This document shows, piece by piece, positions 13,416 through 22,659 of a DNA stretch of 64,000 nt. How positions within the stretch are numbered: the first letter of the stretch is position 1; each line of letters starts with the position of its first letter. This DNA is from Bacteroidales bacterium (lineage in GTDB: Bacteria > Bacteroidota > Bacteroidia > Bacteroidales > F082), in assembly GCA_017477425.1 (NCBI GenBank), contig JAFUVT010000024.1:1-64000 (forward strand), written 5' to 3'. The notes below the pieces were generated by a model. That model saw only the letters and a list, made by a program, of their open reading frames with translations. It did no database searches and was not told where the DNA came from. Made by a program: the position numbers and the translations under genes.

Positions 13416-14588
13416 TTATTTCATCGGATAATTTCCCCAGTCCTTCCAGGAAACGTAGTCGATCCCGTTGAGGGAGAGGCTTAGGTCGCCAAGGTAGAAG
13501 ACTGCGCCTTGGCTGCCGTCGTTGCCACGAAGGGCGAGGTAGTCGCGAGTGTTTTTCGAGAGGTTTTGCTCGGCCTCGATGGTGCTTTTGATTTCGATGG
13601 CGAAAGTGTGTCTCCAGTCGGCGATGGTGTCCACCTCGAAGCCTTTTTGGTCGCGGTAGAAGGTCAGGTTGGGCTGCTTGCCTTGGTTGAGGCGGTTTTT
13701 CAGCAGTTCGGCAATGGCGAAGCTCTCCACGATGGCGCCCTTGTGCTCGCTGAGAATCAGTTCCTCGACGGACTCGATTCGGAGCAGATGGCAAAGCAAT
13801 CCCGAATCCACGAAGTAGAGCTTGGGCGTTTTCACCAGCGACTTGCCCAGGTTCTGTGTGTCGGGCTCCAAGAGGTGGATGATGAAGGACGACTCCAGAA
13901 TGGAAAGCCATTGTTTGACGGTTGGGGCCGAAACGCCGATGCCACGGGCGATGCTGTCCATCGAGAGCATCTGTCCGCTGTAGGTGGCGCAAATCTGGAT
14001 GAATTTCTTGAACACGGACAGGTTGCTGTAGTTGATCTGACTCTCCACATCCAGGTCGAGGTAGGTGTCCACATAGCTGTTGAACCAATCGTCGACCGTA
14101 AAATGCTTGTCAGGGTCGTACAAAGGCGGATAGCAGCCTTTGAAAATCGTCTCGTATACGTTGGAACCCAGTGCGTTGCCGTTTTGGAGCTCGCCGATGG
14201 AGAAGGGGAGCAGCTTCAAAAAGGCGGCTCGCCCTGCCAGCGAGTCGGTCATGTTTTGCTTCAGGTTGAACTGGTTGGAGCCTGTGAGGATGAACTTGCC
14301 TGGCGTGAATGCGTTTTGGTCGATGTGGTATTTGACGGCATTGAAGATCTCGGGCACCTTTTGTGCCTCGTCGATGATGGCTCCGTCGGGGAAAGCCAGC
14401 AGGAAATCGGTCGGATTGGCAGCGGCCAACTCGCGGAAGTTCTTGTCGTCGAACGAGATGTAGCGTTTCTCGGGAAACGCCATCTTCGCGAGGGTCGATT
14501 TTCCGCTTTGGCGTGGTCCCGTGATGCCGATGACGGCGAATTGCGAGGCAAGTCGTAGCAAGGCGTCTTTTGCAGTTCTCTCAATCAT
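13416..14588 (-). CDS. AAA_14/DUF4143 ATPase, copy 2
   Basis: A 390-residue ATPase of the same family as copy 1 but closer to the family consensus. Walker A is GPRQSGKST (residues 24-32), Walker B-like AIIDEAQKVPE, and LTGSNQF acts as sensor. A winged-helix-like part (IARGIGVSAPTVKQWL) is followed by the DUF4143 region with YFVDSGLLCHLL and a PD-(D/E)XK-like pair, GFEVDTIADW and AIEIKS. It ends 22 bases before mutS2 and may be co-transcribed with it. Its promoter (-7 TATTTTTG at 14624-14617) is preceded by four copies of a 22-23 bp repeat. The function of the family is not established. Confidence 0.85.
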   Translation of the reverse strand: MIERTAKDALLRLASQFAVIGITGPRQSGKSTLAKMAFPEKRYISFDDKNFRELAAANPTDFLLAFPDGAIIDEAQKVPEIFNAVKYHIDQNAFTPGKFILTGSNQFNLKQNMTDSLAGRAAFLKLLPFSIGELQNGNALGSNVYETIFKGCYPPLYDPDKHFTVDDWFNSYVDTYLDLDVESQINYSNLSVFKKFIQICATYSGQMLSMDSIARGIGVSAPTVKQWLSILESSFIIHLLEPDTQNLGKSLVKTPKLYFVDSGLLCHLLRIESVEELILSEHKGAIVESFAIAELLKNRLNQGKQPNLTFYRDQKGFEVDTIADWRHTFAIEIKSTIEAEQNLSKNTRDYLALRGNDGSQGAVFYLGDLSLSLNGIDYVSWKDWGNYPMK

Positions 14589-15942: not shown

Positions 15943-16752
15943 TTATAGGTTCAGTCGTAATTGTATCTCCTCCACCTGTCGTTTCAGTTCCTGGACGGTC
16001 TGCATCAGTTGTTCCTCGCGGAAGTGGTTTTCGCGTTGCTCGGGCATCTCCGCGCTGATGTAATGCACAAATTTCCACACCTCTTTAATATCTGAGGCGG
16101 GCAGGTCGTAAGGATGGTAGAGCGGATTGAGTGAGCTGAGGGTCAGTTTGCTCTCGTGCTCGATTTTGTTTTCCACGATCTTGAAGACGATGCCGTCGTC
16201 CTGCGTGAGCACGATGTAAGGCTGGCCGCTGCGGATGTAGGTCCAGTCGATGACATACTCGCCGGTGACGTAGGAGCCGTCGGGGATGGGCAGCATCGAG
16301 TCGCCGCTGATTTGGAAGGTGCGGTACTTGCGGTCGTGCGAGAGGAACGGCATCGTGAAGGTCGGCAGCACCTTGATGTATTCAGGGTCGGCGAAGCCCG
16401 TGGCATAGCCCGCCTTGGCTTTTTCGGTGACGAGTTCGATGTTTTCGTTGTTGTCCGTATTGACGGTGGTGGCCAAGACGCGCAAGTTGCTGCCTTTCAG
16501 GTGGACGTCGTAGCCACGCTCCAGTTGTGAGAGTTGGCTCGGGCTGATGGTGCTCAAGTCGACCTTCACCAAGGTGTCGATGGCGATGCCGAAATATTTC
16601 GAGAAGGCCACCAAAGCCTCAAGATTGGGCTCGGAGACGCCGTTTTCGTAGCCGCTCAAGGTGGAGCGCTTCATATCCAGCGCGAAAGCCACGTCGTCTT
16701 GTGTGCGGTTGCGGTGCTTGCGCAGAAATTTTATGTTCGATTTGAAGTACAT
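15943..16752 (-). CDS. LexA-like repressor: XRE HTH plus S24 autoprotease domain
   Basis: A 269-residue protein. Residues 5-62 are an XRE helix-turn-helix (RTQDDVAFALDMKRSTLSGY). A linker leads to an S24/LexA-type domain. KAKAGYATGF holds an Ala114-Gly115 pair suited to self-cleavage. GDSM supplies the likely nucleophile Ser152, and GIVFKIV supplies Lys191, 39 residues later, close to the Ser-Lys spacing of LexA. The C-terminus is a short coiled coil (LMQTVQELKRQVEEIQLRL). It is divergent from dinB across a spacer that carries an inverted-repeat operator. Expected role: RecA-stimulated cleavage, releasing dinB, itself and dnaE (family knowledge plus inference). Confidence 0.85.
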   Translation of the reverse strand: MYFKSNIKFLRKHRNRTQDDVAFALDMKRSTLSGYENGVSEPNLEALVAFSKYFGIAIDTLVKVDLSTISPSQLSQLERGYDVHLKGSNLRVLATTVNTDNNENIELVTEKAKAGYATGFADPEYIKVLPTFTMPFLSHDRKYRTFQISGDSMLPIPDGSYVTGEYVIDWTYIRSGQPYIVLTQDDGIVFKIVENKIEHESKLTLSSLNPLYHPYDLPASDIKEVWKFVHYISAEMPEQRENHFREEQLMQTVQELKRQVEEIQLRLNL

Positions 16753-16783
16753 ATTGATAAAATGATTAGATTTGTGGCGAAAG

Positions 16784-16817
16784 TTTTGATTAAAAACTCG
16801 TCAAAAGTACGACTTTT
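16784..16817. promoter_or_regulatory. Probable SOS-type operator between the repressor gene and dinB
   Basis: TTTTGA and TCAAAA (16784-16806) are inverted around TTAAAAACTCG, overlapping a second inverted repeat AAAAGT-ACG-ACTTTT (16803-16817). The 22-base stretch that begins with GGCGAAA and ends in TTTTGATTAAAAACT is nearly identical to that before the DnaE gene at 19706-19727. It would serve both divergent genes. Confidence 0.6.
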
Positions 16818-16859
16818 TTGGAACATACAAGCATTTTAGGCAAAAAAAAGCGAAAAAAT

Positions 16860-17996
16860 ATGGAACGCACGATATTGCATCTGGATTTGGACACCTTTTT
16901 CGTGTCGGTGGAGCGGCTGTCGAATCCCGCTTTGGTGGGCAAGCCGGTCATTGTGGGCGGTATGTCGGACCGTGGCGTCGTCTCGACGTGCAGCTATGAG
17001 GCAAGAAAGTTCGGCGTGCATTCGGCCATGCCGATGCGCATGGCGCGGCAACTTTGCGGGCAGGCGGTCTTCATCCGTGGCGACATGGAACTTTACAGCC
17101 GTTATTCGCGCCTCGTGACTGACATCATCGCCGACAGCGCACCCGTCTATGAGAAAATGTCCATCGACGAGCATTACCTCGACCTGACGGGTATGGACCG
17201 CTTCCACGACTGCCAGCTGTGGTCGCACGAACTGCGGCAGAGAATCATCCACGAGACGGGCCTCCCGATTTCGTTTGGCCTCTCGGAAAACAAGACGGTG
17301 GCGAAGATTGCCACGGGGCAGGCCAAGCCCAACGGCGAGCTGGAGGTGCCCACACCTTATATTAATAGCTTCCTCGACCCGCTGTCGGTGCAAAAGATCC
17401 CGATGGTAGGCGAGAAGACCTACGCCTTGTTACGCTCGATGGGCGTGGAGAAAATCGGCACCTTGCGCCGCCTGCCGCCCGTGGCCGTCGAGCAGGCGAT
17501 GGGCAAGCACGGCCTCGACATCTGGAAGAAGGCCAACGGCCACGACAGCACACCCGTGTGCCCTTACCAGGAGCGGAAGTCCATCAGCAAGGAGCGCACC
17601 TTCGAGCAGGACACCATCGACATCGTGGCCATCAAGCAATGCCTAGCGCGGATGGTGGAGAGCCTTGGTTTCGACCTGCGCTCGCAAGGCAAGCTGGCGG
17701 GCTGCGTGACGGTGAAGATCCGCTACGCGAACTTCGACACGCACGACATGCAGCAGCGCATTCCCTACACTGCCTTTGACCATGTGTTGCAACAGGTTGT
17801 AAACGAGATTTTTAAGAAACTATACAACCGCCGGATGATGATCCGTCTCATCGGTGTGCGGCTGAGCGAACTGGTGAACGGTGCGCCGCAGTTGGCCTTG
17901 TTTGACGACAACACGGGACTGACGCAACTCTACGCCGCAATGGACAAAATCAAAATGCGCTTCGGCGAGAAGGTGCTTCATCGGGCGGCGGGGTGA
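16860..17996 (+). CDS. dinB: Y-family DNA polymerase IV
   Basis: The start is the ATG at 16860 (MERTILHLDLDTFF), a 378-residue protein. It does translesion synthesis. Catalytic carboxylates are visible at Asp9 and in SIDEHYLD (Asp103, Glu104), and Phe14 takes the steric-gate position of DinB. The helix-hairpin-helix region (VGEKTYALLRSMGVEKIG) and little-finger domain follow. Near the C-terminus QLALF fits the beta-clamp-binding motif. The active-site residues are all present, so this is an active DinB rather than an inactive ImuB. It is divergent from the LexA-like gene and under the shared operator. A DnaE-type polymerase lies downstream beyond an inserted ATPase gene. Confidence 0.95.
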   Translation: MERTILHLDLDTFFVSVERLSNPALVGKPVIVGGMSDRGVVSTCSYEARKFGVHSAMPMRMARQLCGQAVFIRGDMELYSRYSRLVTDIIADSAPVYEKMSIDEHYLDLTGMDRFHDCQLWSHELRQRIIHETGLPISFGLSENKTVAKIATGQAKPNGELEVPTPYINSFLDPLSVQKIPMVGEKTYALLRSMGVEKIGTLRRLPPVAVEQAMGKHGLDIWKKANGHDSTPVCPYQERKSISKERTFEQDTIDIVAIKQCLARMVESLGFDLRSQGKLAGCVTVKIRYANFDTHDMQQRIPYTAFDHVLQQVVNEIFKKLYNRRMMIRLIGVRLSELVNGAPQLALFDDNTGLTQLYAAMDKIKMRFGEKVLHRAAG

Positions 17997-18041
17997 GATT
18001 GAAGGGTGAAGCCATATTACAGTAGCCTACTCATAGGCTCA

Positions 18042-19178
18042 TCATATTCCTTCCGACCAAAGCATTTTAAGGAAGTCAAGGATGTAGACACATTCAATGT
18101 CGCCTATACGGCGATTGAATTTGTCGAGCGACACGACCATTCGTCGGCTATGGGGGTGCTCCTCGCCAAAGGCTTTTAGACCCTTCAAGTGACGCGGCTG
18201 TACTTCTTCCGCCGATTTTATCTCTATGGCCACCCGCGCATCGCCAATCACTGCGTCCACCTCAAGGCCTGTATAAGTGCGCCAATAAGACAAGGTCTCT
18301 TCCGAGTGGGTGTAGTGCAACCAAGCATAGATTTCCTGGATGACCAAATGCTCGAAGGCATGCCCATAATCAATGCTGCCTCTGTCCATTTCTTTGCGGT
18401 GCAACAGATGATTGGCGACGCCGATGTCGAAATAATAAAATTTTGGCGCTTGCATCAGACGCCTTTTCATAACCTTACGGAACGCCGGTATCCGATAGCC
18501 CATTAGCGTGTCCTCAAGGATGTCGAAATAGGCATTTACGGTTGTGGCATGGACACCGCAGTCTTGGGCGATGTTGTTGTTGTTGACAATCTCGCCATCC
18601 GTCAATGCCGCCATTTCAAGAAAGCGGTGGAAAGCATCGAGGTTGCGCACAAGGGCTTCTTCTTTGATTTCCTCTTTCAGATAGATGTCGATATACCCGG
18701 CCAGGAATCGGTTGGGATTTTTGGCTAAATAGTGAGGCGGTATCATACCATAGGTGACGGCGCGGTCAATGTCGAAATCAGGTATCTCTGCACTTACCAG
18801 GGGATAGAGATATACAGGGAAGGCGCGACCACCAAGCGTGTTGTGTCCCTTGCGTTTCAGTTTTCTTGCGCTGGAGCCGCACAAAATGAAGACAACTCCG
18901 GCCTCGACAATTAGGCGGTGAACCTCGTTCAGCAGTTCTGGCACTTCTGGTATTTCATCAATGATGACCAACGTGCCTTCTGGTTTGTCCTTCAAAGTCT
19001 CGTAAAGGAGTGTTGGACGCCTCCGATACCTTTCTTTCACGCTGGTGTCGAGCAAGTCGATGTAAATCGAATCGGGGAATTGTTGCCTCAATATAGTTGA
19101 TTTTCCTGTTTGGCGCGCTCCGAACAGGAAAATGCTTCCGTCTATTTCTTCTTTTAGGTCTAAAATGCGGTGTAACAT
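18042..19178 (-). CDS. AAA_14/DUF4143 ATPase, copy 3
   Basis: A 378-residue member of the same ATPase family as copies 1 and 2. Walker A is GARQTGKST (residues 20-28), Walker B-like LVIIDEIPEVPE, sensor FILCGSSARKLKRKG. The DUF4143 part has FYYFDIGVANHLL and the PD-(D/E)XK-like pair GLEVDAVIGDARV and AIEIKSAEE. It lies on the opposite strand between dinB and the DnaE-like gene, so it appears inserted into the cassette. Unlike copies 1 and 2 there is no tandem repeat upstream; its -7 box TATCTTTG is at 19264-19257 and its leader holds an AT-rich palindrome (GATTTTTAATTAAAATC, 19235-19251). Confidence 0.85.
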   Translation of the reverse strand: MLHRILDLKEEIDGSIFLFGARQTGKSTILRQQFPDSIYIDLLDTSVKERYRRRPTLLYETLKDKPEGTLVIIDEIPEVPELLNEVHRLIVEAGVVFILCGSSARKLKRKGHNTLGGRAFPVYLYPLVSAEIPDFDIDRAVTYGMIPPHYLAKNPNRFLAGYIDIYLKEEIKEEALVRNLDAFHRFLEMAALTDGEIVNNNNIAQDCGVHATTVNAYFDILEDTLMGYRIPAFRKVMKRRLMQAPKFYYFDIGVANHLLHRKEMDRGSIDYGHAFEHLVIQEIYAWLHYTHSEETLSYWRTYTGLEVDAVIGDARVAIEIKSAEEVQPRHLKGLKAFGEEHPHSRRMVVSLDKFNRRIGDIECVYILDFLKMLWSEGI

Positions 19179-19256
19179 ACAGATAACTTTTTATTTATGC
19201 AATATTTTTCTTGAATATATTGGATTATACACAAGATTTTTAATTAAAATCGAGCG

Positions 19257-19264
19257 CAAAGATA
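19257..19264 (-). promoter_or_regulatory. -7 element of DUF4143 ATPase copy 3
   Basis: TATCTTTG on the minus strand, about 80 bases upstream of the start codon. This leaves a leader that contains the AT-rich inverted repeat at 19235-19251. Confidence 0.45.
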
Positions 19265-19392
19265 TGACTTTTTTCTGGGTTGGGGATAAAATGATGGGAA
19301 AATTTGACTTCGGCGGTTCCGCTTATCAATTGGATGAGGTAGTGGCGCGTGGAGTGAAGGAATTGAAACTACAGAAAGAAAAATATCCGTAA
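19264..19392 (+). CDS. Short unrecognised open frame, possible gene remnant
   Basis: A 42-residue frame, MTFFWVGDKMMGKFDFGGSA then YQLDEVVARGVKELKLQ. The second half looks like natural protein sequence (acidic/basic helix) but matches no family I recognise. It overlaps the ATPase copy 3 promoter and has no promoter of its own. It may be a relic of a gene lost when the dinB-dnaE interval was rearranged, or chance. Confidence 0.2.
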   Translation: MTFFWVGDKMMGKFDFGGSAYQLDEVVARGVKELKLQKEKYP

Positions 19393-19705
19393 AAACACCA
19401 ACATATTGGAATAATGTGTATTATCGCACTATTTAATGAAAAAAAGAAAAAAGTTGCGCAAATTGTAAACTATTTCGTGTTTTTGCGCTATTGATAAAAA
19501 CGATATGGAAAAAGGAAAGAAGTTCACAAACGGCTAGCCTTGACCTTGGCTCACTCGGACGGGTGGCACTTTGGTAGGCCATCGTCATTGCCACAAAAAA
19601 ACTGCCCCACCATCTTCGCTTTTCCATTTGATTGAATGTGGAACGAGGATGGTTTATTTTATGCCTGAATCCATCTCCATCCCAAAAACTTTGATTAAAT
19701 TTACG
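19393..19705. other. Gene-poor spacer with a GC-rich, possibly structured segment
   Basis: No confident gene. Positions 19505-19627 are richer in GC than the surrounding spacer and carry a hairpin GTGGCA-N20-TGCCAC (19563-19594) and the palindrome GGCTAGCC (19532-19539). A minus-strand frame of 64 residues crosses it (MEKRRWWGSFFVAMTMAY and on), but its last third is low-complexity AT-rich DNA. The segment could be a small RNA, a dispersed element or a short peptide gene; sequence alone does not decide. Confidence 0.3.
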
Positions 19706-19735
19706 GCGAAAATTTTGATTAAAAACTAATCAAAT
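19706..19735. promoter_or_regulatory. Probable SOS-type operator before the DnaE-like gene
   Basis: A perfect inverted repeat TTTGATTA-AAAAC-TAATCAAA (19714-19734), preceded by GGCGAAA as at dinB. It ends at the likely TTG start codon, so a bound repressor would block the transcript start. A further half-site-like TTTGATTAAATTTA lies at 19690-19703. Confidence 0.6.
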
Positions 19736-22659
19736 TGTGTAAATTGATTGAGGTTCGTTCATATAACAGTCTGTGTTACGGCACGATGCACATTCAAGAC
19801 CTTGTCGGAAAGGCAAAGGAATTGGGCTATACGGCCTTGCCTTTGACCGACATCAACACGATGATGGGCGTGCCCGATTTCGTGGTCGAGTGCGGGAGGA
19901 AAGGCGTGCGGCCTGTGGTCGGCGTGGAGTTCCGCAACGGCAACGAACTGCTGTATGTGGCCTTGGCCAAAAACAACGCGGGCTTCGCCGAACTCAACCG
20001 CTTCCTGACGCAACACAACATCAATAAGCAGCCCTATCCCGAAACGGCGCCCGATTGGGAACAGGTTTTCGTGTTTTATCCCTTCGGGAAACGAACTGCG
20101 AACTCGCTGAAAGAGAAGGAGTTTCTTGGCGTAAGGCTTTCGCAACTCACCAAATTGTATCATTGCAAGTCGTTTGAGAAAATGGTCGCCATGCAGCCTG
20201 TGACCTTTGCGGATGCTGAGGATTTCCAACTGCATCAGTGTATGCGGGCCATCGATGAGAATGTGCTGATTTCGCGCCTCGAACCTGCCGCATGCGCCTC
20301 GCCCGATGAGGTTTTTATGTCGCTGGAACAACTGAAAGAAGCCTACGCACAATATCCACAACTGATTGAGAATGCGGAACTTTTGTTGAGCCAATGCGAA
20401 ATCCACCTCGACGGAAACGTGAAAAACAAGCATTGCTATACAGACAACGTCAACGACGACCGCGAACTGCTCCGCAAACTCGCTTTCGACGGCATGATGT
20501 ATCGCTATGGCACGACCAACAAAACCGCCTATCGCCGCATCGAGAAGGAGTTGGACATCATCGACCGAATGGGCTTCTGCGCTTATTTCCTCATTGCTTG
20601 GGACATCGTGCGCTACGCCATGTCGCAGGGTTTTTATCACATCGGACGCGGCAGCGGCGCCAACAGTGTGGTGGCTTATTGCCTGAAAATCACCGATGTG
20701 GACCCGATTGAACTGGATTTGTACTTCGAGCGTTTCCTCAACCCCAAGCGAAGCAGTCCGCCCGATTTCGACCTCGATTTCTCGTGGCGCGACCGTGACC
20801 GCATTTTCGAATACCTCTTTAAGAAATACGGCCCCGACCACGTGGCTTTGCTCGGCGCGACGGTCACCTTCCAGGGCAATTCGCTTTGCCGCGAGCTGGG
20901 CAAGGTGTTCGGTCTGCCCAAAGGCGAAATCGACCAGATGGAGCGCAACCCCGAGGAGTTTGCCCGTTACAGCGGCCTCGGGCGGCAGATTTTGTCCATC
21001 GCCGAGCGCCTCCGCGACTTCCCGCGCCAACGCTCCATCCATGCCGGAGGCGTGCTGATTACGGAAGACCCGATTACCGATTTCGCCGCCCTCGACCTGC
21101 CGCCCAAAGGCTTCCTGACGACGCAATACGATATGTATTCCGCTGAAAAACTGGGATTTGAGAAAATCGACATTCTCAGTCAGCGGGGCATCGCCCACAT
21201 CCGCGACGCGGTGGAGATGGTGGAACGCAACCACGGCGTGCACCTCGACATCCATCAGGTGAACGCGCTGAAAGAGGACGAACAAGTCAAGCGGCAACTG
21301 CTGAAAGCCGAGACCTGCGGATGCTTCTACATCGAGAGTCCGGCCATGCGCGGCCTGCTGCGCAAGTTGCGCTGCAGCGATTACAAGACTTTGGTCGCGG
21401 CCAGTTCCATCATCCGGCCAGGTGTGGCCAAATCGGGTATGATGCGCGAGTACATTCATCGCTTCCATCATCCTGAAACAGTGAACTATAAGCATCCCGT
21501 TTTGAAGGAATTGCTGGCCGAAACCTACGGCGTGATGATTTACCAAGAGGATGTGCTGAAGGTCGGGCATTATTTTGCAGGTTTGGACTTGGCCGAAGCC
21601 GATGTGCTGCGCCGTATGATGGGCCACAAGATGCGCGACAAGGCTGAATTTGAGGAAGTTAAAAACCGATTCTTCGGCAACTGCAAGGCCAAGGGCTATC
21701 CCGATGCCTTGGTGGGCGAACTTTGGCGGCAGATCGAGTCGTTTTCGGGCTATTCATTCTCGAAGGCACACTCGGCATCCTACGCGGTGGAGAGCTACCA
21801 AAGTCTCTATCTGAAAAGCCACTATCCGCTTGAGTTTCAAGTGGCTGTCATCAATAATTTCGGTGGCTTCTATCAGACTTGGTTCTACTTCAACGAGGCG
21901 CGGCGTATGGGCGCAAAGATCCATTTGCCCTGCGTCAATAGGAGCCAATATCTTACCACTTTGAAAGGTCGGACGGTGTTTATGGGCTTCGTGCATCTGC
22001 AAGGCGCGGAGCAGCGTTTTGTGGAGCGTTTCATCGCCGAACGCGAGGCGCGTGGTCCTTTCGCCGACTTTGAGGATTTCGTTGCGCGTGTGTCGTTCAC
22101 GCTGGAACAACTCATTTTGCTCATTCGTGGCGGCGCGTTCAGCTTCACGGGACGTACCAAAGCCGAACTGCTTTGGCAGGCGCACTTGAACAAAGGCCAC
22201 GGCAAAAAGGAACAGCCCGAAACGCTTTTCAAGGTTGAGAACCAGCATTTTGAGTTTCCGAACTTCACGGTCAACGCCTTGCAAAACGCTTACGATGAGA
22301 TTGAATTGTACGGTTTCCCCGTGTCGATGTCTTGGTTCGATATGCTGAAAACCAAGTTCCGAGGCGAGCTGATGGCTTGCCAGATGCTGCATTTCGTAGG
22401 GCAACATTACCGGATGCTCGGCAAGCTGGTGACGGCGAAATACGTCCGTACCAGCCGTGGCGAGACGATGGTGCTGGGCACTTTCGTGGACGCCACGGGC
22501 GAGGCCTTCGACACGGTGCATTTCCCGCAGGTGCTGAAAGCCTATCCCTTCCAAGGCGACGGCGTGTATCTGCTGTTGGGCATGGTCACGGAGGAGTTTG
22601 GGCAACCGTCGTTGCAGGTGGAGAAGATGGCGAGGATGGAGTATAGGATGTTAGAGTAA
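19735..22659 (+). CDS. DnaE2/ImuC-like DNA polymerase III alpha subunit
   Basis: A 974-residue C-family polymerase, shorter than replicative DnaE (about 1160) and close to error-prone DnaE2/ImuC. The N-terminal PHP domain is degenerate: it opens with SYNSLCYGTMHIQDL where active PHP domains have metal-binding histidines. The palm has GRGSGANSVVAYCL and the catalytic PDFDLDFSWRDRD. HAGGVLIT, the helix-hairpin-helix region and a C-terminal OB-fold (LGKLVTAKYVRTSRGETMVL) follow. There is no in-frame ATG nearby; TTG at 19735 or 19744 is the likely start. The operator directly upstream and the nearby LexA-like gene and dinB point to damage-induced mutagenesis. No imuA-like gene was seen. Confidence 0.85.
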   Translation: MCKLIEVRSYNSLCYGTMHIQDLVGKAKELGYTALPLTDINTMMGVPDFVVECGRKGVRPVVGVEFRNGNELLYVALAKNNAGFAELNRFLTQHNINKQPYPETAPDWEQVFVFYPFGKRTANSLKEKEFLGVRLSQLTKLYHCKSFEKMVAMQPVTFADAEDFQLHQCMRAIDENVLISRLEPAACASPDEVFMSLEQLKEAYAQYPQLIENAELLLSQCEIHLDGNVKNKHCYTDNVNDDRELLRKLAFDGMMYRYGTTNKTAYRRIEKELDIIDRMGFCAYFLIAWDIVRYAMSQGFYHIGRGSGANSVVAYCLKITDVDPIELDLYFERFLNPKRSSPPDFDLDFSWRDRDRIFEYLFKKYGPDHVALLGATVTFQGNSLCRELGKVFGLPKGEIDQMERNPEEFARYSGLGRQILSIAERLRDFPRQRSIHAGGVLITEDPITDFAALDLPPKGFLTTQYDMYSAEKLGFEKIDILSQRGIAHIRDAVEMVERNHGVHLDIHQVNALKEDEQVKRQLLKAETCGCFYIESPAMRGLLRKLRCSDYKTLVAASSIIRPGVAKSGMMREYIHRFHHPETVNYKHPVLKELLAETYGVMIYQEDVLKVGHYFAGLDLAEADVLRRMMGHKMRDKAEFEEVKNRFFGNCKAKGYPDALVGELWRQIESFSGYSFSKAHSASYAVESYQSLYLKSHYPLEFQVAVINNFGGFYQTWFYFNEARRMGAKIHLPCVNRSQYLTTLKGRTVFMGFVHLQGAEQRFVERFIAEREARGPFADFEDFVARVSFTLEQLILLIRGGAFSFTGRTKAELLWQAHLNKGHGKKEQPETLFKVENQHFEFPNFTVNALQNAYDEIELYGFPVSMSWFDMLKTKFRGELMACQMLHFVGQHYRMLGKLVTAKYVRTSRGETMVLGTFVDATGEAFDTVHFPQVLKAYPFQGDGVYLLLGMVTEEFGQPSLQVEKMARMEYRMLE

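Follow-up and report, generated by a model that had tools for sequence, protein, structure and literature searches.

Non-canonical LexA proteins of the Bacteroidetes combine a CI-type helix-turn-helix (HTH) domain with an S24 peptidase domain, an architecture shared by the repressor considered here, and in the part of their description drawn on here, relatives sharing its domains and residues recognise dyad-N5-dyad sites, and their targets are induced by mitomycin (Sanchez-Osuna et al., 2021; PMC8565304). The motifs given there are CTAA-N5-TTAG, GGA-N5-TCC and a TTAC-N5-GTAA case, the regulons comprise 8.9 +/- 3.27 operons in several families, and both non-canonical groups are called absent from Bacteroidales (PMC8565304). 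We consider a cassette of this kind from a Bacteroidales bacterium of family F082, in a window (the whole stretch of DNA analysed) of 64,000 nucleotides: positions 1 to 64,000 of contig JAFUVT010000024.1, assembly GCA_017477425.1. It holds an XRE-S24 repressor gene, a divergent dinB and a dnaE2-like gene. As in the published systems, so far as that part of the source covers them, there is a CI-type HTH with S24, an Ala-Gly site, a Ser/Lys pair, dyad-N5-dyad operators, and probable autoregulation and control of error-prone polymerases, from one of which the repressor gene of Elizabethkingia anophelis is also divergent. The differences are a GATTA-N5-TAATC motif that matches neither published group motif, two promoters in place of 8.9 +/- 3.27 operons, and a fixed pairing of operators at 23/24 base pairs (bp) that the same part of PMC8565304 does not describe. 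This fixed, lambda-like spacing is the most interesting feature of the locus and was not seen in an earlier note on this DNA. The regulatory device is real and well conserved, and the locus is, judging from sequence, probably a small damage-inducible mutagenesis switch under a non-canonical LexA. Its main parts are as follows.

15943..16752, minus strand: repressor gene, XRE-S24, non-canonical LexA type, 269 amino acids.
16860..17996 (ATG at 16860), plus strand: dinB, a catalytically intact Y-family polymerase, 378 amino acids.
19735..22659, plus strand: dnaE2-like C-family polymerase gene, 974 amino acids; the start, TTG 19735 or 19744, is uncertain.
16764..16778, plus strand: operator O1 of the repressor/dinB promoter, GATTAGATTTGTGGC, GATTA-GATTT-GTGGC.
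16788..16802, plus strand: O2 of the repressor/dinB promoter, GATTAAAAACTCGTC, GATTA-AAAAC-TCGTC, 24 bp from O1.
19693..19707, plus strand: O1 of the dnaE2-like gene, GATTAAATTTACGGC, GATTA-AATTT-ACGGC.
19717..19731, plus strand: O2 of the dnaE2-like gene, GATTAAAAACTAATC, GATTA-AAAAC-TAATC, a perfect dyad, 24 bp from O1.

Each polymerase promoter thus holds two operators of the form GATTA-N5-(TAATC or variants), with starts 24 bp apart. The earlier note had pointed to near-identical sequences before the two polymerase genes, and the stretches 16776-16798 and 19705-19727 do differ at only 1 of 23 bases, but they are the middle of a longer paired element: what is shared is two tandem 15-mers, not a single palindrome, and the GGCG that the note took as the start of the element begins at the end of the first 15-mer. 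The perfect palindrome it reported at dnaE is there as described (TTTGATTA-N5-TAATCAAA, 19714-19734). A dyad-N5-dyad operator is also present in the repressor's own promoter, where the second halves are imperfect (TCGTC, GTGGC). The 24 bp pair at both promoters is not due to chance, because in the source genome (2.98 Mb in 39 contigs) a search allowing 0-2 mismatches finds it without mismatch at dnaE2 alone, with two at dinB, and otherwise only at two places, with two mismatches, inside open reading frames (ORFs).

Conservation was followed from a scan of named genomes (alignment A1), which gave 193 confirmed relatives of the repressor; the best 80 loci were kept, mutually related and some of them near copies, and two were dropped for too little upstream DNA, leaving 78 tested promoters. 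Many of the loci used are named Bacteroidales and a few Marinilabiliales or Prolixibacteraceae. With no preset motif, the commonest perfect gapped palindrome with five-base arms was GATTA-N5-TAATC, present in 33 of the 78 (mean 0.06 and at most 1 in 100 shuffles). A pair matrix that allowed offsets of 22-25, a range set after looking at the data, found a pair within 250 bases of the repressor start in 63 of the 78 promoters, 47 at 23 and 16 at 24, with none at 22 or 25; all 63 scores exceeded 15, against a best of 5.8 among 780 shuffled 250-base promoters. In 14 of the other 15 loci a pair stands 90-308 bases before dinB, at distances from the repressor that reach about 1.4 kb; these pairs score at least 22, on stretches longer than the 250 bases that the shuffle control covers. 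A 23/24 bp pair is therefore found in 77 of the 78 loci, and the remaining locus has no pair and no dinB found in its stretch either (L161). The earlier note had staked its operator on the motif recurring at other XRE-S24/dinB loci, as it does.

The spacing stands out without the matrix as well. When partner sites were sought freely around 44 anchors at offsets of 10-110, 41 lay at 23 and no other offset had more than five. By eye, 27 of 30 same-genus upstream stretches (200 bases each, own included) have the same kind of pair, which also precedes same-genus dnaE2. In searches that started from the pattern, with the motif read backward as control, a 23 bp pair with up to two mismatches matched 65 of 247 genomes of the order (control 4 by count), and at 26 of the 30 loci returned one or more of the repressor, dinB and dnaE2 lay no more than about 3 kb away; a 24 bp pair with at most one mismatch matched 44 of 60 genomes of the genus (control 3). 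In the annotated record of phage lambda, the right operator (OR) has OR3-OR2 and OR2-OR1 distances of 23 and 24 bp (NC_001416, J02459), and adjacent sites here stand at the same 23-24 bp between centres, under a phage-type HTH as in CI. The locus differs from lambda in operator sequence, in having two sites rather than three, and in being a host gene that would control polymerases, with a presumed cooperativity.

The repressor has HTH_3 (PF01381) and Peptidase_S24 (PF00717) domains, both above the Pfam cut-offs, and the cleavage site and catalytic pair named by the earlier note are all in place: Ala114-Gly115, Ser152 and Lys191 are invariant in 16 of 16 aligned homologues, and the Ala-Gly, Ser and Lys positions are kept in all 43 Bacteroidales rows of a wider set. 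The winged HTH DNA-binding domain of canonical LexA was not found, Pfam giving only HTH_3-type domains, and the alignment of homologues shows a C-terminal extension, in a family for which an extra C-terminal helix is described. Its domains, residues and N5 dyads would place the repressor in the same wider family as the non-canonical LexA proteins, and its motif outside the two named groups.

The position of the operators relative to the promoters bears on how the pair might work. The Bacteroides -7 consensus is given as TANNTTTG in the part of the source used here (PMC4747536), and the candidates in the divergent promoter are these.

16767..16774, plus strand: dinB -7 box candidate, TAGATTTG, an exact TANNTTTG, inside O1.
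16741..16744, plus strand: TTTG, a weak -33 candidate for dinB judged by eye, lying 22 bases ahead of the -7 box.
16802..16809, minus strand: repressor -7 box candidate, TACTTTTG (TANNTTTG), its last base shared with O2.
16828..16831, minus strand: repressor promoter -33 candidate, CTTG, 18 bases before the -7 box.

In 57 of 63 promoters of relatives, TANNTTTG on the repressor strand occupies one exact place, sharing a base with O2; the search spanned 66 bases and saw it once more elsewhere, against a per-position background of 0.0035; its CAAA belongs to the extended operator, which leaves TA as the informative letters. The dinB -7 box takes looser forms in relatives and so is weaker evidence than that of the repressor, and by eye the one-way dnaE2 promoters have TANNTTTG in 2 of 12. 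A -33/-7 promoter built from the TTTG flanks of O1 and O2 was rejected, the spacing being too short. Because O1 and O2 lie on or beside the -7 candidates, the two operators would cover the start regions of both divergent genes. The pair is nearer dinB than the repressor in 14 of the 78 loci.

From this arrangement we infer repressor binding, cooperative pairing, RecA-stimulated cleavage, damage induction and translesion function, in the following order. Repressor dimers would occupy two adjacent GATTA-N5-TAATC-type operators, 24 bp apart, at each of the two promoters. At the divergent one, where O1 holds the dinB -7 candidate and O2 abuts that of the repressor, one bound pair would shut both genes, and a second pair would shut the dnaE2-like gene where this has a promoter of its own. 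RecA filaments on damaged DNA would then provoke cleavage at Ala114-Gly115 and the pair would empty, whereupon both polymerases would be made and copy past lesions, probably with RecA in place of ImuA/ImuB. The domains, catalytic residues, operators, spacing, conservation and the agreement of operators with transcription units are direct observations. The last can be seen among 24 same-genus dnaE2 loci (the present one among them; four additional genomes, whose matches were split, were left out). In the 12 loci with dinB at most 424 bases upstream and in the same orientation, dnaE2 showed no pair of its own, and where dinB is outside the upstream stretch or 717 bases away (L075), it always does (12 of 12). 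The O2 on the dnaE2 side ends in TAATC in all 12, and none of the inspected same-genus O2 sites on the dinB side does, a difference that suggests a grading of operator strength. As the dnaE2-like start codon in the window comes after O2, its message may be leaderless.

The tandem 15-mers could instead be bound independently, one for each divergent promoter, with the 23/24 bp spacing a matter of promoter geometry only. Both sites do sit on or beside -7 candidates of divergent genes, so that promoter spacing could set the distance, and when CTAA pairs at 23 bp were sought across whole genomes of the class, the result did not rise above its backward control (33 of 247 genomes match, against about 30). 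One-way dnaE2 promoters keep the same 24 bp pair, however, and the spacing recurs outside the order: among 40 promoters chosen there, 14 have CTAA-N5-TTAG and none an exact GATTA-N5-TAATC, and in 11 of the 14, from other Bacteroidia, a second CTAA-type copy stands at 22-23 bp. Two of the 40 (L255, L267) have pairs about 33 bp apart instead, one helical turn beyond 22-23. Independent binding is a serious possibility, if less likely than not. The alternative of a Bacteroidota non-canonical LexA that kept the lambda OR geometry (two cooperative dimers, 22-24 bp) while its half-sites drifted (GATTA, CTAA), making the cellular SOS switch a domesticated phage switch with a steep response and graded operators, is offered tentatively, as something that may be so; our estimate of it was lowered a little because the CTAA search was barely above control. 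If true, the graded operators (symmetric O2 at dnaE2, asymmetric at dinB) would release dinB first and the mutator DnaE2 last, and if spacing is kept more than sequence, the locus gives a testable lead on the way in which a phage-type repressor became a cellular SOS switch.

Within the genus, 31 of 35 genomes have a full-length homologue of the repressor; of 24 genomes sampled from the order's other families, 8 do, one of which (G047) sits with the CTAA group. In the phylum, 62 of 296 genomes, own included, have a match. The recognition helix differs in step with the operator motif, typical forms being KRSTLSGYEN in Bacteroidales, KRSLVGAYEE with CTAA, and TR-RY--YED in two TTAC rows; L235, a homologue of another order whose helix resembles the GATTA type, carries a degenerate GATTA pair spaced by 23 bp. 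In a quick tree with no outgroup, whose rows are labelled by order rather than motif and from which four rows with short or misread starts were left out (L236, L237, L259, L270), 42 of the 43 Bacteroidales rows form one cluster with modest support (Shimodaira-Hasegawa-like approximate likelihood ratio test, SH-aLRT, 89). This lies next to a cluster with the CTAA rows (95), in a tree built without the named published proteins. One Bacteroidales row, L055, lacks a GATTA site and groups among the CTAA rows.

The earlier note had called the palindrome the local SOS box of a LexA-like S24 repressor and proposed a genome-wide scan for it at recA and other repair genes. The matching operators at dinB and the dnaE2-like gene bear out the local part of this, but the element does not have the look of a general SOS box here: convincing pairs in the source genome are found only at the dinB/repressor and dnaE2 promoters. 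With up to three mismatches the 24 bp pair has 18+24 matches there (control 7+6), and 16 of the 17 loci fetched beyond the cassette promoters lie inside ORFs of at least 120 amino acids, for which reason the matches beyond the cassette were taken as chance. The 23 bp pair is absent from this genome. None of 60 genomes of the genus has more than two pairs at 24 bp with at most one mismatch, a limit at which weaker pairs like that of the present dinB would escape, and in this genus the regulon of pairs appears minimal. Of single GATTA-N5-TAATC sites with one mismatch, the source genome has 62 (control 27), a roughly twofold excess that is not fully explained. Of 15 such loci fetched, 11 sites overlap an ORF of at least 100 amino acids, and the remaining four are at dnaE2, at what by eye resembles the end of a small coding gene (L227), and in intergenic DNA (L229, L232). 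The fetched neighbours at L229, L232 and L233 encode a ketoacyl synthase, a sigma-70-type factor and an FHA/trypsin-like protein, with no repair genes. Further single-site targets may exist, as the fetched loci cover part of the 62 places. A search with TTTGA-based 21-mers turned up another two exact places; each overlaps an ORF, and both were rejected. Twenty further stretches, drawn from genomes in which several pairs occur, include two with a pair before an SRAP (SOS response associated peptidase) gene, in two other Bacteroidales genomes (L319, L323); SRAP (COG2135) is named a LexA-regulated SOS gene in the part of PMC8565304 used here.

The phage-like character of the repressor raises another explanation, that it is the immunity repressor of a mobile element (prophage or plasmid) which stands beside dinB by chance, with operators of phage type and any control of the polymerases accidental. 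Its HTH is CI-like, among PHROG families it matches one of phage transcriptional repressors best, and the operators have lambda-like spacing; lambda CI is itself a repressor with an S24 domain. Homologues also occur on Bacteroidota plasmids, some beside dinB-dnaE: in Chryseobacterium and Emticicia the repressor is divergent from dinB-dnaE, in Dyadobacter from ImuA, a Y-family protein and an error-prone polymerase, while the Runella plasmid homologue has none of these polymerase neighbours. Phage records, however, returned just four partial matches, at less than 40% identity. Among the best 80 of the 193 relatives, dinB is divergent from the repressor in 66 and dnaE2 is nearby in 53, and the pairs stay by dinB even with the repressor up to about 1.4 kb away. 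We regard this explanation as very unlikely. The presence of the switch on the named plasmids L362, L363 and L364 indicates that it travels on plasmids.

The polymerases resemble the DnaE2B-PolY-RecA putative mutasome of Bacteroidetes, which in the parts of the sources used here has an active PolY and DnaE2 and no ImuA/ImuB (PMC6511836, PMC12926913). Here too an active Y-family polymerase stands beside a putative extra DnaE2, apparently without ImuB, and there is a clamp motif and a possible, weak RecA N-terminus-like tail; a repressor and operators of the present kind are not named in those parts of PMC6511836 and PMC12926913. DinB has IMS and IMS_C domains (Pfam) and was rightly called catalytically intact, as the acid residues in the DLD and SIDE motifs align with E. 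coli and other solved Pol IV chains. The clamp motif QLALF is at residue 344, and a loose RecA N-terminal motif occurs in 46 of 66 DinB tails. The second polymerase, described as DnaE2-like in the earlier note, has Pol III alpha NTPase, finger, HHH and PHP domains, and its catalytic aspartates, a DFD and a later Asp, align with E. coli DnaE; as a label for this C-family protein 'DnaE2-like' is less firm. It passes only the polc superfamily cut-off of NCBIfam, and in some relatives a further DnaE frame, longer and 32-35% identical, is present. Two Y-family matches and one RecA-family match were found in the source genome, in which ImuA and ImuB were not searched with models of their own.

Several results weigh against a damage-inducible mutagenesis switch. 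The dnaE2-like protein falls below the NCBIfam cut-offs for both DnaE and the error-prone polymerase, with DnaE scoring higher; its identity as an accessory DnaE2 is inferred from context and publications, and this doubt is why our confidence in the switch was slightly reduced. The RecA-like match of the DinB tail is to the N-terminal window, the best of all RecA windows, but is weak (177 of 2000 shuffles do as well). The second operator could be a by-product of overlapping divergent promoters, a view countered by its presence at one-way dnaE2 promoters. The CTAA pairs have no genome-wide support, so that 11 of 14 promoters carry that claim. Three of the four plasmid homologues gave no dyad pair in an automatic test; Runella has two weak dyad pairs at 23 bp, and Emticicia a direct repeat at 23 bp by eye. 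In one other Bacteroidales genome (G462, loci L309-L315) one of seven pairs is at the cassette and six, unexplained, are beside genes with no evident repair role, which may point to a larger regulon or a repeat family. Finally, recA of the source genome has no operator site, for which reason the link to damage is drawn from homology and the S24 residues. The missing recA site would also suit a repressor that escapes RecA-stimulated self-cleavage and responds instead to a different signal or to a protease, as the XRE repressor DdrO of Deinococcus does with its own; the HTH profile weakly matches DdrO structures. DdrO is not known to have an S24 domain, though, and Ala-Gly, Ser and Lys are invariant in all 43 Bacteroidales rows, which makes this a far-fetched account of the present repressor.

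Other S24 repressors distinct from LexA are HdiR (in PMC8565304), UmuDAb (PMC11332147) and FddR of Francisella (PMC13148647). In the parts of these sources used here, they too have small damage regulons and are in some cases divergent from a DinB gene, but they belong to other clades with other motifs (GTG-N11-CAC for FddR), and no such DnaE2 cassette is described. On the same partial basis, the repressor type (PMC8565304) and DinB/DnaE2 without ImuA/ImuB (PMC6511836, PMC12926913) are already published, and the new elements are a clade in Bacteroidales with a motif of its own, the lambda-like pair at fixed spacing, the fit of that pair to the repressor's promoter, and the two-promoter regulon; among the matches listed in a search limited to open papers, none deals with Bacteroidales operators of this kind. 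A switch as proposed would correct the published map, which has neither SOS regulator group in Bacteroidales, an order that our genome searches may delimit more widely than PMC8565304 does in the part used. It would also supply a ready motif for damage regulons in a large gut and rumen order, and points to a possible place of control for inducible mutagenesis in uncultured anaerobes. The closest named records are uncultured Bacteroidales/Bacteroidia assemblies with repressors 80-95% identical, several of which bear titles that point to the rumen or another gut source; Candidatus Limimorpha caballi, at 72%, is the first record to carry a genus name.

Some neighbouring and secondary genes complete the description. 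The six G462 pairs outside the cassette have as neighbours GH65, ATP synthase A, a carboxypeptidase-regulatory-domain protein or small HTH protein, and unnamed ORFs. S24 matches in the source genome are only two, the repressor and an ORF of 140 amino acids that adjoins one of 97 amino acids, PqqD-like by eye. A second Y-family polymerase of 526 amino acids (contig C35; L308, 574-2154) has, by eye, a RecA N-terminus-like tail and a QLDLF motif; it has no operator pair, and no UmuD-like S24 partner for it was found in the source genome. One further gene lies between the two polymerase genes of the window.

18042..19178, minus strand: AAA_14/DUF4143 ATPase gene between dinB and the dnaE2-like gene, outside the cassette as judged by relatives.

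With a second AAA_14/DUF4143 ATPase gene at 13416-14588, it flanks the repressor-dinB pair.

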